This document shows positions 3,358 through 49,376 of a stretch of DNA of 49,376 nt, piece after piece (the stretch's first letter is position 1; every line of letters begins with the position of its first letter). This DNA is from Marinilabiliales bacterium (GTDB lineage: Bacteria > Bacteroidota > Bacteroidia > Bacteroidales > F082). Below the pieces are notes generated by a model that saw only the letters and a program-made list of their open reading frames with translations, made no database searches and was not told the DNA's origin. The position numbers were made by a program, and so were the translations under genes. The stretch covers positions 1-49,376 of the forward strand of contig PKTA01000094.1 in NCBI GenBank assembly GCA_002869365.1, in the 5' to 3' direction.

Positions 3358-3879
3358 ATGAGAAAAGAAGATAAACAACAACTTATCGATTCAATTGCTC
3401 AGTTACTAACTGACAACAACAATTTCTATCTTACAGATATCTCGAGTTTAAATGCAGAAGATACTAGTAATCTTAGAAGATTATGTTTCAAGAACGGCAT
3501 TCATATGCGCGTTGTTAAAAACACTCTTCTTCGTAAAGCGATGGAAAAAGTTGACAGAGGATATGATGAGCTTTATGACACACTTAAAGGAAATACATCA
3601 ATTATGTTTGCAGAAGCAGGTAATGCTCCGGCAAAAATGATTAAGGATTTCAGAAAAAAGAAAGATCGTCCCATTTTAAAGAGTGCCTTCATTGAGGAAA
3701 CTGTTTATATTGGTGATGAAAATCTTGACTTCCTTGTTTCCATTAAGTCGAAAAATGAACTAATTGCTGATCTTATTGCATTATTGCAGTCACCTGCGAA
3801 AAATGTTGTTTCAGCACTACAATCCGGAGGAAATACTCTTACCGGAGTTCTTAAAACCTTATCAGAAAGAGGTGAATAA
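3358..3879 (+). CDS. rplJ: 50S ribosomal protein L10
   Basis: L10 anchors the L7/L12 dimers to 23S rRNA. The 173-residue product starts MRKEDKQQLIDSIAQLL and has the conserved core GIHMRVVKNTLLRKAM, NTSIMFAEAGNAPAK and the C-terminal L7/L12-binding helix (SPAKNVVSALQSGGNTLTGVL). It starts 11 bases after the rplA stop. The autoregulatory leader found before rplJ in other bacteria is absent, so any feedback on L10/L12 would have to act elsewhere. Confidence 0.96.
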   Translation: MRKEDKQQLIDSIAQLLTDNNNFYLTDISSLNAEDTSNLRRLCFKNGIHMRVVKNTLLRKAMEKVDRGYDELYDTLKGNTSIMFAEAGNAPAKMIKDFRKKKDRPILKSAFIEETVYIGDENLDFLVSIKSKNELIADLIALLQSPAKNVVSALQSGGNTLTGVLKTLSERGE

Positions 3880-38131: not shown

Positions 38132-40219
38132 ATGAAACCAAGATTTTTTATCAGTTTAATTTTAGTTGTATTTTTTACTACGACAATCTTTGCTAAAGAT
38201 ATTCCTCTTAGCAAGGCCAAAACAGTGGCCACAAATTTTTATTTCGAAAAGGCATTTACATTCGGACAGAAAATTAACTATTCCGACATTAACATAAATG
38301 AAGCGTATAACGTTGATAATGCTTATTATGTTTTTAATTTTGATGAGGGATGGGTTATTGTATCAGCAGAAGATGCTACAAAACCTGTTTTAGGTTATAA
38401 TGTAAATGGAACATATCCAACAAAAGAGCAGATAAATTACAATTTTGATAGTTGGATGCAGCATTTTGTTGATCAGTATAATTACATTAAAGAAAACAAT
38501 ATAACAGCTACTAAAGATATTTCTTCAGAATGGAATAAATATATGACTTCAGAACCTGAGAAATTATTATCGGGCGACAGAGATGTAACAACGCCTTTAT
38601 TAACAGCAATGTGGAATCAGGATGCTCCTTATAATTTACTTTGCCCCGAAGATGAAGCAGGACCGGGAGGACATGTTTATGTAGGTTGTGTTGCCACTGC
38701 CATGGTGCAAATAATGCATTACTGGAGATATCCAAACAACGGTTCCGGATCGGATTCATATTATCAGTATCCTTATGGAACAATTTCAGCCAATTATGAT
38801 ACTACATATAATTGGAATGGAATGCAGGACGATATCAGTAATGAAAATCCTTGGGACATTGCACTTATTGGATTTCATGCAGCTGTATCTGTGGAAATGA
38901 ATTTTAGTGCTGACGGATCAGGTTCTTATAGTTGGGATGTGCCTTCAGCCCTGGAAAATCATTTTAACTATTCAACATCTGCGGCCTATATTGAGAAGAG
39001 TAATTATTCTGCTTCCGTTTGGGAAAACTATATGCAGCAGGACCTTGACGCAGGAAAGCCATTATATTACTCAGGATATAGTAGTAGTGGAGGTCATGCA
39101 TTTGTTTGCGATGCTTATGAAGGGATGAACTACTATCACTTTAATTTTGGATGGAGTGGCTCAGGAAATGGATTTTTTACTTTATATGATGTAGGAGGAT
39201 ATAATAGTGGCCAGGGAATGGTAAGAAGTATTGTTCCAGGAGATAATAACTACCCATATATTGCAGATGGTAATTATACATTGCCTTTTAAATCAGGTTC
39301 ATTTACAGATGGTAGCGGTCCTGTTGAAGATTATCCTTCAGGGGTTCAGGCATCATGGCTAATAGCACCACAAACTGAAATCGACTCAATTGAATCAATA
39401 CACTTATCATTTGTTGAATTCAATACAAATTCAAATGATATTTTAAGAATATACGGTGGAAATAGTACCGATGGAGAACTACTGGGTGAATATTCAGGAT
39501 CAACTATACCAAGCCAGATTAATTATGATGGTAATGAAATGTTTATCACATTTAATTCAACAGGATCAGCTTCCGGCTTTAAAGCCGAATATACATCTTC
39601 CTCCCCGGCATGGTGCAGCAATTCAAACAATTTCTCAGAACCAACAGGTACATTTAACGATGGTAGCGGTGATTTCTATTATAATAATAACTCCACTTGT
39701 GTGTTCGTAATCCAAAATCCTGAAGCAGTTACTATTACCCTTGAGTTTACAGAATTCAACACAGAACTTGACAAAGATAAAGTTACTGTTTATAATTCGA
39801 GTAATCAGGTTGTTGCAACCCTGTCAGGAGATGAAATTCCAGAACCTATAGTTTTAGAAGGCAGTACTATGTTTATCACCTGGAATACTAATAGTTCAGT
39901 TAGAGGTGAAGGCTGGACTGCAGAATATTATATGAATGGAGTTGGCGTAGAGGAAAATAATGATAATAACATTAAACTCTCTATATATCCTAATCCTTCA
40001 GATGGAATTTTCAATGTTAATTTTGAAAAACAATCCACCCAAAATATAGATTTAGTAGTTACTGATATTAGTGGCAGGCTAATAAACAAAACACAAATAA
40101 AAAGCGCATCCGGCATCTATAATTCTAAAATTGATTTGAGTACTCAGCCAAAGGGAATTTATATTCTAAATATAAAAGGTGATGATACCATTGTAAACAG
40201 AAGACTTATTGTAAGATAA
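38132..40219 (+). CDS. Secreted C10 (streptopain-like) cysteine protease with T9SS sorting domain
   Basis: A 695-residue exported protease. After a signal peptide (about 1-21) comes a Spi/pro-peptide-like region (AYYVFNFDEGWVIVSAEDATKPVLGY). The C10 catalytic domain follows with Cys186 in YVGCVATAMVQIMHYW, His322 in GGHAFVCDAYEG and the conserved Trp341 in HFNFGWSGSGNGFF. Two CUB-like domains follow (about 375-475 and 485-600; FTDGSGPVEDYPSG and FNDGSGDFYYNNNS mark their starts). The last 80 residues are a type A T9SS sorting domain (LSIYPNPSDGIFNVNF... GIYILNIKG...RRLIV). It is therefore predicted to be secreted or surface-anchored. It stands as a single-gene unit with its own terminator. 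Confidence 0.94.
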   Translation: MKPRFFISLILVVFFTTTIFAKDIPLSKAKTVATNFYFEKAFTFGQKINYSDININEAYNVDNAYYVFNFDEGWVIVSAEDATKPVLGYNVNGTYPTKEQINYNFDSWMQHFVDQYNYIKENNITATKDISSEWNKYMTSEPEKLLSGDRDVTTPLLTAMWNQDAPYNLLCPEDEAGPGGHVYVGCVATAMVQIMHYWRYPNNGSGSDSYYQYPYGTISANYDTTYNWNGMQDDISNENPWDIALIGFHAAVSVEMNFSADGSGSYSWDVPSALENHFNYSTSAAYIEKSNYSASVWENYMQQDLDAGKPLYYSGYSSSGGHAFVCDAYEGMNYYHFNFGWSGSGNGFFTLYDVGGYNSGQGMVRSIVPGDNNYPYIADGNYTLPFKSGSFTDGSGPVEDYPSGVQASWLIAPQTEIDSIESIHLSFVEFNTNSNDILRIYGGNSTDGELLGEYSGSTIPSQINYDGNEMFITFNSTGSASGFKAEYTSSSPAWCSNSNNFSEPTGTFNDGSGDFYYNNNSTCVFVIQNPEAVTITLEFTEFNTELDKDKVTVYNSSNQVVATLSGDEIPEPIVLEGSTMFITWNTNSSVRGEGWTAEYYMNGVGVEENNDNNIKLSIYPNPSDGIFNVNFEKQSTQNIDLVVTDISGRLINKTQIKSASGIYNSKIDLSTQPKGIYILNIKGDDTIVNRRLIVR

Positions 40220-40241: not shown

Positions 40242-40270
40242 AAGCGCTTTCCCCGGAGAGCGCTTTTTTT
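40242..40270 (+). terminator. Intrinsic terminator of the C10 protease gene
   Basis: A stem aagcgct/agcgctt (7 bp) with a 10-base loop is followed by seven T's. It lies 22 bases after the stop codon. Its T-run overlaps the stop codon of the convergent zinc-ribbon gene. Confidence 0.88.
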
Positions 40271-40718
40271 ATTCTGTGTTACTTATTTTGGTATTTATTT
40301 GAGAAATAAGTCTGGCAATAAATTTATTATCATTTGTATTTTCACGACAATCCATAATTTTTTTCTTAAAAGAATAACAAGTCATATGCCTCAACTGAAG
40401 ATATTCACTTATTTTATATGACGATATGACAGGAGCCTGACATGCTAATAAAAGTATTTCAAATGCCTTTTTAAGTGAAAATTTACAGCGGTGAAAAATT
40501 GTATTAGCTGTGGCCGATTCTTCCTTTTTACATTTTGTACATCTCCTGGAAAAAGCACTCTTTCCGCTACAATAATTGGTATTTCCGCATTTGGAGCAGA
40601 TAAATCCATCAGACCACTTGAGCTCAGCAAGCACTTCCAAACAATCATCATCATTTAAAAAAACCTTATGAAATTTTTCTAAATGATTATTTAAGTTTTC
40701 TATATTTATAGTTGTCAT
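40269..40718 (-). CDS. Stand-alone transposase-type zinc-ribbon protein (IS1595-like, no DDE domain)
   Basis: A 149-residue protein resembling the N-terminus of IS1595/ISXO2-type transposases: a zinc ribbon (Cys41, Cys44, Cys60, Cys63 in CSKCG...CTKCK) is followed by TANTIFHRCKFSLKKAFEILLL and a helix-turn-helix-like region. The catalytic DDE domain that would make it a transposase is absent. The gene ends in a normal stop, and no terminal inverted repeats or target duplications were seen around it. A promoter candidate precedes it, so it looks like an intact gene rather than a decayed element. It may be a domesticated DNA-binding protein, or a remnant. Confidence 0.75.
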   Translation of the reverse strand: MTTINIENLNNHLEKFHKVFLNDDDCLEVLAELKWSDGFICSKCGNTNYCSGKSAFSRRCTKCKKEESATANTIFHRCKFSLKKAFEILLLACQAPVISSYKISEYLQLRHMTCYSFKKKIMDCRENTNDNKFIARLISQINTKISNTE

Positions 40719-40803: not shown

Positions 40804-40840
40804 CAAAATTATTTAATAACAAATATATAACAAATTGTTT

Positions 40841-41350
40841 ATGAACAAATTAGTTGTTTTTTTAGGATTTATTATTCCGATTACGATTCTTAGTTGTTCA
40901 ACTAGTGTTGGAAATCAGGAACATGAAGTAACACAAGATGGCAAAAACATGAGCATTTCAAAAGATAAAGAAGATGCCAATGTTACGAAACCGGAGTATT
41001 TAACACTGGAATCATTCAAAGAAAAAGTATGGAATTTTGAAGAAAATCCGGAAGAATGGGTTTACAAAGGAGAAACTCCTTGTGTAATAGACTTTTATGC
41101 AGATTGGTGCAAACCTTGTAAGATGGTTGCTCCTATAATGGATGAAATGGCTCAGAAATATGATGGAAAAGTTAAGATTTACAAAATTGATACCGATAAA
41201 GAAAGAGAACTTGCAACCATATTCAGAATCAGATCAATTCCTTCGGTACTATTTGTACCCAGCGAGGGAAAGCCAAGTATGAAAACAGGTGCTTTACCTA
41301 AGGAATCTTACATACAAATAATAGATAACGAACTTTTAAAAAATAAATAG
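40841..41350 (+). CDS. Thioredoxin-fold lipoprotein
   Basis: A 169-residue exported thioredoxin. The N-terminus is a lipoprotein signal (MNKLVVFLGFIIPITILSC, lipid Cys19). A charged linker follows, then a thioredoxin domain with the active site DFYADWCKPCK (Cys90, Cys93) and the cis-Pro motif RSIPSVLFV. The frame is open six bases further upstream from a TTG, but ATG 40841 begins the clean signal peptide and is preferred. It is 5 bases upstream of a closely related cytosolic thioredoxin, so the pair looks like a tandem duplication in which one copy acquired an export signal. Likely role: thiol reduction or disulfide handling on the periplasmic side. Confidence 0.9.
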   Translation: MNKLVVFLGFIIPITILSCSTSVGNQEHEVTQDGKNMSISKDKEDANVTKPEYLTLESFKEKVWNFEENPEEWVYKGETPCVIDFYADWCKPCKMVAPIMDEMAQKYDGKVKIYKIDTDKERELATIFRIRSIPSVLFVPSEGKPSMKTGALPKESYIQIIDNELLKNK

Positions 41351-41355
41351 TAAAC

Positions 41356-41721
41356 ATGGAACATTTAACAAAAGAGACTTTTCTTGAGAAAGTATTTAAC
41401 TACGAAAAAAATAAAGATTGGTCATTTGAAGGCAAATTACCTTGTATAATTGATTTTTATGCCGACTGGTGTCAACCTTGTAAAATTGTATCTCCAATTC
41501 TGGAGGAACTATCAAAAGAATACGAAGGAAAAATTAACATCTATAAAGTAAATACCGAAGACGAAACTGAATTATCAGCAGCTTTCGGTATCAGAAGTAT
41601 TCCTTCATTACTTTTCTGTCCTGCCGATGGGCAACCACAAATGGCTCAGGGTGCATTACCAAAAGAAACATTAATTCAGGCAATTAATGATGTACTGTTA
41701 AAAGGCGCTGAAGCCAAGTAA
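41356..41721 (+). CDS. Cytosolic thioredoxin
   Basis: A 121-residue thioredoxin with active site DFYADWCQPCK (Cys39, Cys42) and cis-Pro motif RSIPSLLFC. WCQPC replaces the common WCGPC. It has an N-terminal segment (LTKETFLEKVFNYEKNKDW) shared with the upstream lipoprotein paralogue (LTLESFKEKVWNFEENPEEW), which is longer than in E. coli-type thioredoxins. No signal peptide. It is co-transcribed with the lipoprotein copy and ends at a strong terminator. Confidence 0.93.
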   Translation: MEHLTKETFLEKVFNYEKNKDWSFEGKLPCIIDFYADWCQPCKIVSPILEELSKEYEGKINIYKVNTEDETELSAAFGIRSIPSLLFCPADGQPQMAQGALPKETLIQAINDVLLKGAEAK

Positions 41722-46971: not shown

Positions 46972-46999
46972 AGGGCGGAGTTTTACTTCGCCTTTTTTT
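46972..46999 (+). terminator. Intrinsic terminator after the Trx/TrxR pair
   Basis: An 8-bp stem (agggcgga / ttcgcctt, two G-T pairs) with a 7-base loop is followed by a T-run. It lies 31 bases after the reductase stop. It is the first element in the 402-base gap before the TonB receptor; the rest of that gap is the FMN riboswitch and its downstream platform. Confidence 0.8.
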
Positions 47000-47099
47000 A
47001 TGCTTTATTTGTACTAACTATAAATTAGCCTGCTACACAAAAAAACTCACTTTTCATTATCGATTTATCCAACAAAAAGATTCATTTTTGCCGCTTGAA

Positions 47100-47222
47100 T
47101 TTCTTCGGGGCAGGGTGTAATTCCCTACCGGCGGTGATAGTCCGCGACTCCTGACGATAAATGTCAGGATTGATTCTGTGAAACTCAGAAGCCGACAGTT
47201 AAAGTCTGGATGGTAGAAGAAA
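47100..47222 (+). promoter_or_regulatory. FMN riboswitch (RFN element)
   Basis: The conserved RFN blocks are present in order: ttcggggcagggt, ttccctaccggcggtgatag, tccgcga, a variable hairpin (cctgac...gtcagg, 47150-47168), tgattctgtgaaactca, gccgacagtt, agtctggatgg and the closing gaagaa. P1 pairs ttcttc (47101-47106) with gaagaa (47216-47221). It senses FMN, and usually turns downstream flavin synthesis or transport genes off when FMN is plentiful. About 120 bases separate it from the TonB receptor start. Gene synthesis enzymes (rib) are not next to it, so a transport role is indicated. Confidence 0.96.
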
Positions 47223-47343
47223 TAAATATATTGTGATGATTTCCATTTGGTGATATGTCTTGCTTTAGCGCTGGCAGGGTATATTTTCATCGTGGTATTT
47301 TTATTAAGCCCCGTGATTTGTTTAATTTAAATATCGATAAACG

Positions 47344-49376
47344 ATGAAAATAAAAATTAAATTACTGATCGGATTAATAATCATAACAACAAGTAGTTAT
47401 GCACAGTTTGCCATTAAGGGTAAACTAATCGACACCCAAACAAAACTTCCCGTTCAAAATGTTAATATCAACATCGACGGACAATCGGAAGGTAGTACTT
47501 CAGCAAAAGATGGTACATTTATATTTACAACTCAGGAGAGTAATGTTTTTATAAATTTCTCTGCCATTGGATATAAAAAGAAGCAAATTCACCTACAAAG
47601 CATTAAAAGAGATATTTCGCTAGGAGAAATTTTATTGGAGGCTCAGCCCTACTCCCTGGATGAAATAACCATTAATGCCGGATTGCGAAATGACGAGGAG
47701 TTGCCAATTACCATTTCAACTGTTAACGCCAGGGTTATCGAAAACAACCTCAGCAACAGACCTTTACCTCTTATTACTCAAACCATTCCCGGCGTGTTTA
47801 GCGTAAGAGATGGTGGCGGAAGCGGAGATGCAAAACTTAGTATCCGCGGTTTCCAGCAGGAAAGTGTTAGTTTACTTCTTAACGGTATTCCCATTAATGG
47901 GGAAGAAAATGGTTTAGTATACTGGAGTAACTGGCTGGGGTTAAGTAATTCCGCTGCCGAAATACAAATTCAAAAAGGTCCGGGACTTGCCAATGCATCA
48001 GTTAATTCAATAGGAGGAAGTATTAATATTATTACTCAGAATGCTGAAAAAGAAAAAAGCGGCTCCATTGGATTAACTTTAAGTGATTATGGCAATATCA
48101 ACACAACAGTAAGCCTCAACAGCGGTTTATTAAACAATGGATGGAACACTTCATTGATGCTTGGTTTTGGGAGAGGTCCCGGTTATGTTGATGCCACTTA
48201 TGTAAAATCGTGGTCGTATTTTTTTACCGCCTCTAAACAGTTTAACAATAAGCATAAAATCAGCATTACTTTAATAGGAGCACCTCAAATTCATGGTCAA
48301 AGAACCATAAAACTTTCTCAGGAAGAAGTAGATAAAAATGGCATAAAATTCAATAAAGACTGGGGCGGATTAAATGGAAGAATGAAAAATGCTTCTGAGA
48401 ATTTTTATCACAAACCGTTTTTAAACATCAACCACGAATATAAGATCGACAATAAAAACATCCTCTCAACTTCAGCATATATTGCTTTAGGAACAGGTGG
48501 CGGCCGATGGTCGGAAAGTTTTAACTATGCACCATCAATATTCTCATACAGAAATAGTTCCGGACAACTGGATTGGGATGCAGTTTATGATAATAATGCA
48601 AATCATGGAGGAAGTTATACTCTTGAAAATGGAGAAACTGTAAGTGGGTATTCATTGAATGCTCAAACAAGTTATTTGGCTAGTCACGTCCAAACAGGCT
48701 TGATAGTTAATTTCGAGCATCAGATAAATTCATCACTTAAATTCCAGTCGGGAATACATTACAGATATTTTAATTCCTTTTTAAGGGAAGAAATTAATGA
48801 TTTGATGGGTGGTAATTTCTTTATTGAAGATTACTCATGGTCGCTGGCAGGAGTTGCAGGAAGAAACCAAATAAAAACTGTTGGCGATATTATAAGAGTT
48901 GACAATAATTCCATAATAAATTTCGCTAATGCCTATGCACAACTACTTCTCGACAACAAAAAGTTCAATGCTCATGTTTCGGTAAATGCCAATAATAACT
49001 GGTATAAGCGAGTCGATAGATTTAATTATATAGATAACACTGAAAGTGAAGGGGTTTCCATACCAGGTGTTAATCTCCGTACAGGAATTTTATATAAGTT
49101 AAATAAAAGTAATTCGCTATTTGTTAATGGAGCTTATATATCAAGGGCACCTTATTTTAAGTTTGTATTTGGAAACTATACTAATGTAGTCGTAAAAGAT
49201 CTTGAGAACGAAAAGGTTAAAACTCTGGAAGCAGGATATGAACTAAAGTGGCGTTTGGTAAATGCCAAACTAAGCGCATATTATATCAGCCGCCAGAATG
49301 TTTCTTTGCTTTCCAACGAATATGTTCAGTTAGAAGATAACTCGCAAACCAGAGCAATGATTAACGGTCTTGATGC
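47344..49376 (+). CDS. TonB-dependent outer-membrane receptor, predicted flavin transporter (3' end missing)
   Basis: The frame is open from ATG 47344 to the window end, about 677 residues seen. A signal peptide is followed by QFAIKGKLIDTQTKLPVQNVN (CarboxypepD_reg-like domain, about residues 24-105). The plug domain follows (LPLITQTIPGVFSVRDGGGS, IRGFQQESVSLLLNGIPING, then IQIQKGPGLANASVNSIGGS INIIT), then the start of a 22-strand barrel. It follows the FMN riboswitch, so outer-membrane uptake of riboflavin or FMN is the natural inference. The barrel's end and its neighbours are beyond the window, and no inner-membrane partner can be checked. Confidence 0.93.
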   Translation, partial: MKIKIKLLIGLIIITTSSYAQFAIKGKLIDTQTKLPVQNVNINIDGQSEGSTSAKDGTFIFTTQESNVFINFSAIGYKKKQIHLQSIKRDISLGEILLEAQPYSLDEITINAGLRNDEELPITISTVNARVIENNLSNRPLPLITQTIPGVFSVRDGGGSGDAKLSIRGFQQESVSLLLNGIPINGEENGLVYWSNWLGLSNSAAEIQIQKGPGLANASVNSIGGSINIITQNAEKEKSGSIGLTLSDYGNINTTVSLNSGLLNNGWNTSLMLGFGRGPGYVDATYVKSWSYFFTASKQFNNKHKISITLIGAPQIHGQRTIKLSQEEVDKNGIKFNKDWGGLNGRMKNASENFYHKPFLNINHEYKIDNKNILSTSAYIALGTGGGRWSESFNYAPSIFSYRNSSGQLDWDAVYDNNANHGGSYTLENGETVSGYSLNAQTSYLASHVQTGLIVNFEHQINSSLKFQSGIHYRYFNSFLREEINDLMGGNFFIEDYSWSLAGVAGRNQIKTVGDIIRVDNNSIINFANAYAQLLLDNKKFNAHVSVNANNNWYKRVDRFNYIDNTESEGVSIPGVNLRTGILYKLNKSNSLFVNGAYISRAPYFKFVFGNYTNVVVKDLENEKVKTLEAGYELKWRLVNAKLSAYYISRQNVSLLSNEYVQLEDNSQTRAMINGLD

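Follow-up and report, generated by a model that had tools for sequence, protein, structure and literature searches.

The transport systems RibU, RibM/PnuX, RibN, ImpX, RfnT, RibZ, RibXY and RfuABCD all act at the inner membrane, unlike TBDR-A, the receptor described here. The main survey of riboflavin transporters makes no mention of the outer membrane (PMC4418817), and a 2024 review of TonB-dependent transport names no flavin receptor (PMC11658791). For other vitamins, receptors controlled by TPP and B12 riboswitches have been published (PMC5613172, PMC5317091), among them OMthi (BT2390) of Bacteroides thetaiotaomicron, a TonB-dependent receptor for thiamine under the control of a TPP riboswitch (PMC5613172). 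In the open-access literature searched, neither an FMN-riboswitch receptor nor an outer-membrane flavin importer was found, and an earlier mention elsewhere is possible. Enzymatic trimming of flavin coenzymes has also been described: in maize, nucleotide pyrophosphatases (NPPs) split FAD into FMN and AMP (PMC5572937), and on the surface of schistosomes an NPP cuts FAD to FMN, from which alkaline phosphatase then yields riboflavin (PMC11202380).

The window, i.e. the whole stretch of DNA analysed, is the entire contig C131 (49376 bases) of a genome assembly of 3.6 Mb in 223 contigs; the features of its receptor leader are collected in Table 1. A cmscan search with all Rfam families finds the FMN riboswitch RF00050 (E 4.3e-27, cut-off 66.2 bits) over the full model, positions 1-138 of 138, and this is the single FMN riboswitch of the assembly. 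The next open reading frame on the strand is that of TBDR-A, which starts 118 nt after the 3' end of the riboswitch. The initial annotation had described a complete RFN element in the leader of a TonB receptor with no riboflavin gene between them, and both parts of this description hold, the latter across 47225-47344. On the other side, a predicted intrinsic terminator parts the trx-trxB genes from the riboswitch unit. Further upstream, the window encodes a secreted C10 (streptopain-like) peptidase with an inhibitor propeptide, CUB domains and a Por secretion tail (38132-40219), a 149-residue ORF on the minus strand (40269-40718) that has only an IS1595 transposase zinc ribbon and looks like a transposase remnant, and a tandem pair of thioredoxin-like ORFs (40835-41721) that resemble one another on inspection and the first of which begins like a lipoprotein.

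Table 1. Features of the riboswitch-receptor region at the end of the window
Feature	Position	Strand	Basis
Intrinsic terminator after trxB	46972..46994	+	Terminator scan: 10 pairs, then T7
-7 promoter element CATTTTTG	47083..47090	+	7 of 8 to TAnnTTTG, 14 nt before aptamer
FMN riboswitch aptamer (RFN element), complete	47097..47225	+	RF00050, 118.3 bits; conserved with 16 relatives
CGGGGC, 5' part of aptamer; proposed 5' half of antiterminator/antisequestor	47106..47111	+	Covariation
Hairpin 5' arm TTTTCATCGT	47284..47293	+	Minimum-energy fold
GCCCCG, complementary to 47106-47111	47308..47313	+	Invariant in 4 congeners; 3' arm and T-run gone
Hairpin 3' arm ACGATGAAAA, containing the TBDR-A ATG	47341..47350	+	Minimum-energy fold
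TBDR-A, TonB-dependent receptor, first 677 residues	47344..49376	+	ORF from ATG 47344, open to 49374; Pfam

Since the window is a whole contig and the ORF runs off its end, TBDR-A is cut short by the assembly. The part present matches the Pfam families Plug (1.3e-11) and CarbopepD_reg_2 (4.7e-11), and a full-length orthologue matches Plug and TonB_dep_Rec_b-barrel. The receptor had been labelled SusC-like, and this label is not retained: membership of the SusC/RagA group is defined by a score over the cut-off of TIGR04056, usually with a SusD partner, and this model gives no match to TBDR-A (for TBDR-B, the second receptor of the locus, just 66.9 bits vs the cut-off of 368), while no SusD-type protein is present among the annotated neighbours. 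The AlphaFold2 model of TBDR-A (pLDDT 83.9, pTM 0.79) is that of a TonB-dependent transporter and matches BtuB, FecA and FhuA over residues 103-857, with a beta barrel of the 22-strand type. In Foldseek the PQQ importer PqqU ranks first; in VIA-align BtuB, FoxA, FhuA, FecA and PqqU are tied within 2 Z units, so the fold confirms the family and not the substrate, and the reading of a substrate from the Foldseek rank was dropped. In the tree, TBDR-A forms one clade separate from TBDR-B (support 100/100). One relative (G026, L054) has a single in-frame TAA inside TBDR-A, which marks either a pseudogene or an assembly error.

The remainder of the locus was found by searching the window's own genome for the partner enzymes of its relatives. 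Contig C172 (L071, 7040 bases), read as its reverse complement, carries the end of TBDR-A, TBDR-B (900 residues), an NPP lipoprotein, a PhoD-like phosphatase and, on the opposite strand to these four, aroC. The final ~155 residues of TBDR-A were placed there by homology (tblastn). As the window stops at residue 677 and C172 resumes at 703 in the numbering of the relatives, ~25 codons are missing between the contigs, whose putative join rests on this homology and on the identical order in G002. The NPP gene on C172 appears to start at GTG.

The pairing of riboswitch and receptor is conserved. An FMN riboswitch is present in 38 of 61 related genomes, one per genome, and in 30 of the 61 it is directly followed by TBDR-A; in G012 the two lie at the ends of two contigs. 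After TBDR-A there is usually a second receptor (TBDR-B, or an Oar-like one with Pfam OMP_b-brl_4), then NPP and often PhoD. When the TBDR-A alignment was used to search GTDB genomes, 80 loci were kept, all of them in Bacteroidota or Chlorobiota-labelled metagenome assemblies, the closest named 'Marinilabiliales bacterium'; all named relatives in this work are metagenome assemblies. According to a covariance model built in this analysis, the riboswitch stands immediately upstream of TBDR-A in 75/80 loci, and four of the other five start at or near a contig start. A vitamin riboswitch directly upstream and kept across relatives, characteristic of receptors of the BtuB and OMthi kind, is thus also found for TBDR-A. 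Among 294 class-level genomes searched with strict filters, no FMN riboswitch was detected elsewhere in Bacteroidia. In some loci other genes follow TBDR-A: NiFe-hydrogenase genes in L139, L145, L147 and L150, read as a separate unit, and a 471-residue protein in L120 (11574-12989) and similar loci (L124, L130, L142), which has zero Pfam or NCBIfam matches and occurs in loci without TBDR-B and NPP.

TBDR-A and the genes of riboflavin synthesis exclude each other. The gene ribH is found in 0/30 genomes with the riboswitch-TBDR-A pair vs 22/31 of the others (Fisher 1.2e-9, a value that overstates independence, the genomes being related). The same 30 genomes all lack ribE and all contain the RibF kinase family. 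With ribH and ribE absent but the kinase present, riboflavin, or FMN, must be supplied from outside. When orthologues are called at ≥38% identity (the best homologues in ribH-bearing genomes are ≤37% identical), TBDR-A occurs in 31/61 genomes, the 30 and G012, and ribH in none of these 31. The same combination of riboswitch-TBDR-A and missing ribH is seen in two further families of the order (G041 and G056). For the window's own genome the absence of rib genes rests on the relatives, because this genome is only 88.8% complete.

In five genomes (G017, G019, G044, G049 and G051) the riboswitch is instead followed by ribD-ribE-ribBA-ribH, of which ribE and ribH were confirmed by Pfam and ribD and ribBA identified by reading the sequence. 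The gene order in G019 is trx-trxB-riboswitch-ribD-ribE-ribBA-ribH-TBDR-B-NPP-PhoD, and in the window genome trx-trxB-riboswitch-TBDR-A-TBDR-B-NPP-PhoD, with identities of 63% for TBDR-B, 57% for NPP and 63% for PhoD. Judged by gene order and identity, this is one shared locus, in which either the synthesis genes or TBDR-A fill the position behind the riboswitch. Riboflavin producers are the rule in the order, which suggests that the receptor state may be the later one. TBDR-B, present in the producer G019 where TBDR-A is not, was dropped as a defining part of the system. In G011 (L040) what follows the riboswitch is a 103-aa piece of ribD and a ribH match interrupted by five internal stops; this rib operon looks decayed, with assembly errors as an alternative, since the pnuC-family gene of that genome is broken too.

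TAnnTTTG is the -7 consensus of Bacteroidota promoters. In 55/74 loci, vs 2.5% of shuffles, an exact copy precedes the aptamer at -8 to -32, and mostly at -11 to -15; the window copy has one mismatch. Between aptamer and receptor, 48/76 leaders contain an intrinsic terminator, vs 0.55 expected. In most relatives its 5' arm is GCCC[C/T]G, and this element covaries with C[A/G]GGGC in the aptamer: 48/57 combinations are Watson-Crick (27 A-T and 21 G-C, with 6 A-C and 3 G-T), giving a Fisher value of 1.7e-7 with phylogeny not corrected. A terminator together with the covarying element is the arrangement expected of an antiterminator whose formation would be prevented by FMN binding. The expression platform is therefore coupled to the aptamer in the family, and the window keeps the pairing element, not the terminator, the 3' arm and T-run of which are lost in the window genome (G000) and three congeners. 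The window leader folds 3 SD better than shuffles, and in its minimum-energy fold the TTTTCATCGT/ACGATGAAAA hairpin would mask the TBDR-A start codon. This observation is suggestive only: across four congeners the hairpin shows one compensatory pair and one mismatch (in G004), and for this reason a translational switch in the window's genus is put forward as a suggestion. Overall, the FMN riboswitches of this family probably have an off-switch design, which in the window's genus, with the terminator gone, probably acts on translation.

The enzymes encoded after the receptors belong to families with flavin-trimming members. In a relative, NPP matches PF01663 (E 7e-93), and its closest solved structures are snake-venom and mammalian ectonucleotide pyrophosphatases; the window genome's copy is 57% identical to it. 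The lipobox Cys is invariant in 20 copies, and so, in the alignment to ENPP-type structures, are the KTFPNHY Thr and the Asp and His positions that serve as ligands. We take these invariant Asp, Thr and His positions to be the zinc site and active site. The PhoD-like phosphatase matches PF09423 (104.2 vs 27 bits cut-off) and only partially the Bacillus PhoD structure 2yeq. The two genes are direct neighbours, and the gap between them ranges from -31 to 56 nt. An intrinsic terminator lies between TBDR-B and NPP in 26/33 loci and in the window genome (a strong one, about 3430-3470 of the reverse complement of C172), and almost none is found between the two receptors. The riboswitch therefore most likely governs TBDR-A, perhaps also TBDR-B, and the enzymes are neighbours under their own control; the idea of a single operon under one riboswitch is weakened accordingly.

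The initial annotation proposed to look after the window for an inner-membrane flavin transporter; the genes following TBDR-A on C172 and in the loci of the relatives gave none. The only PnuC-family gene (PF04973) of the window genome adjoins a NadR-like kinase gene and probably serves vitamin B3, for which reason it was set aside as the flavin carrier; riboflavin producers, too, commonly have members of this family. An MFS protein encoded downstream of TBDR-A in eight loci (L120, L124, L128, L130, L131, L137, L140 and L142) was set aside as well; it is of a general DHA2/EmrB-like type, frequently has unrelated SDR and rhodanese genes behind it, does not occur in the window genome and does occur in riboflavin producers. 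In G030 and G039, nearly complete genomes without ribH, ribE, riboswitch and TBDR-A, a second PnuC-family protein (G030:C13:55549-56088 and G039:C45:62308-62880; 249 and 256 aa) is a possible RibM/PnuX-type riboflavin carrier.

The earlier proposal of an outer-membrane flavin receptor, which drew on a single pair of riboswitch and gene, gains from these results, namely from the 75/80 pairing, the mutual exclusion with riboflavin synthesis genes, the replacement of the rib operon and the linked families of FAD/FMN hydrolases. We infer with good support that TBDR-A very probably imports a flavin across the outer membrane. The window would then contain the start of a flavin-salvage locus in a Bacteroidales bacterium unable to make riboflavin. 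At low cytoplasmic FMN, the leader would keep the receptor expressed, and TBDR-A, sitting in the outer membrane and powered by TonB, would bring riboflavin, FMN or FAD into the periplasm. Still outside the inner membrane, NPP and PhoD would most likely trim FAD to FMN and FMN to riboflavin; a carrier in that membrane and the RibF kinase in the cytoplasm would then restore FMN and FAD. At high FMN, binding of the ligand to the aptamer would free GCCC[C/T]G from the 5' part of the aptamer and allow an off-structure to form. In most relatives this would be an intrinsic terminator, in the window's genus probably the start-codon hairpin.

Several alternatives bear on parts of this model. The receptor may carry something other than a flavin, such as iron, heme or a siderophore, with FMN as a mere signal of flavin status. 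Most characterised fold relatives are indeed siderophore, heme or cobalamin receptors, and some bacteria have links between the metabolism of iron and that of riboflavin (PMC6041382), but an iron receptor is not expected to track the loss of riboflavin synthesis, and TBDR-A is confined to genomes without ribH and takes the place of the rib operon behind the riboswitch, which makes this reading very improbable. Regulation itself could be decaying in the window's genus, with a surviving aptamer and a receptor no longer controlled, as the lost terminator arm and T-run and the hairpin mismatch in G004 would allow; against this stand the intact aptamer (118 bits), the kept complementarity of GCCCCG, the long invariant leader blocks in four congeners and the folding of the whole leader above shuffles, and we regard such decay as unlikely.

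The closest competitor concerns the form of the flavin. TBDR-A could take up free riboflavin only, next door to an independent NPP-PhoD unit that scavenges nucleotides or phosphate. Both enzyme families accept a wide range of nucleotides (see PMC5572937), most loci have a terminator between TBDR-B and NPP, and NPP is missing downstream of TBDR-A in 23/55 loci with room for it, so NPP is not essential to the receptor system. On the other hand, NPP follows the receptors in 32 of these 55 loci, and PhoD in 16 of the 32, across deep TBDR-A divergence, and flavin salvage needs exactly an FAD pyrophosphatase and an FMN phosphatase, a pair of the kind used by schistosomes (PMC11202380). Uptake of free riboflavin only is accordingly a real but less favoured possibility, and stepwise trimming of FAD to FMN and riboflavin by NPP and PhoD outside the inner membrane is plausible, with the balance tipping slightly towards it. 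Riboflavin (376 Da) could also cross porins, in which case cells would need a dedicated receptor only when riboflavin is scarce or for the uptake of FAD. Taken further, the lineage may have lost riboflavin synthesis and put a receptor in its place, behind the same FMN riboswitch and accompanied by an FAD-to-riboflavin trimming pair, the result being a system that lives on flavin coenzymes released by other microbes, with TBDR-A as a previously undescribed receptor class; we give this wider picture an even chance.

Among the vitamins, B12 has established receptors in the outer membrane and B1 a reported one, and if the flavin assignment is true, vitamin B2 joins the TonB substrates. The TBDR-A gene would then mark environmental Bacteroidales that depend on riboflavin, and an exchange of flavins between these bacteria and producers would be predicted. 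The locus would also present an RNA switch that keeps its logic while its target shifts from making the vitamin to importing it.

In comparison with known systems, one of the nearest arrangements is that of OMthi, also a Bacteroidota TonB-dependent receptor preceded by a vitamin-cofactor riboswitch, whose class likewise controls the operon that makes the vitamin; here, the ligand is FMN and not TPP, TBDR-A replaces synthesis instead of coexisting with it, and the locus has no PnuT-type carrier. BtuB, the B12 receptor under a cobalamin riboswitch, is likewise a riboswitch-controlled TonB-dependent vitamin receptor and the closest fold (VIA-align Z 35.6), but it shares only ~14% identity, has no N-terminal carboxypeptidase-regulatory-like domain and differs in riboswitch and presumed substrate. 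PqqU (YncD), the TonB-dependent PQQ importer (PMC12124388) and first Foldseek match, resembles TBDR-A in serving non-makers of a small redox cofactor; its identity is 14%, it carries PQQ and not a flavin, and it is tied with other receptors in VIA-align, so that its Foldseek rank is no proof of a like substrate. With RibU, RibM/PnuX, RibN, ImpX, RfnT, RibZ, RibXY and RfuABCD, TBDR-A shares the route of discovery, several of these having been found by an FMN riboswitch before a transport gene (PMC4418817, PMC6593275). Finally, cleavage of FAD to FMN beyond the inner membrane or the cell is also carried out by Shewanella UshA (PMC4468914), Treponema Ftp (PMC4767422) and the schistosome pair SmNPP5 and SmAP (PMC11202380), in none of these cases in combination with an FMN riboswitch or a receptor of the TonB-dependent type; SmNPP5 belongs to the same enzyme family as the NPP of this locus, whereas the partner here is a PhoD-type phosphatase in place of the classical alkaline phosphatase of the SmAP system.
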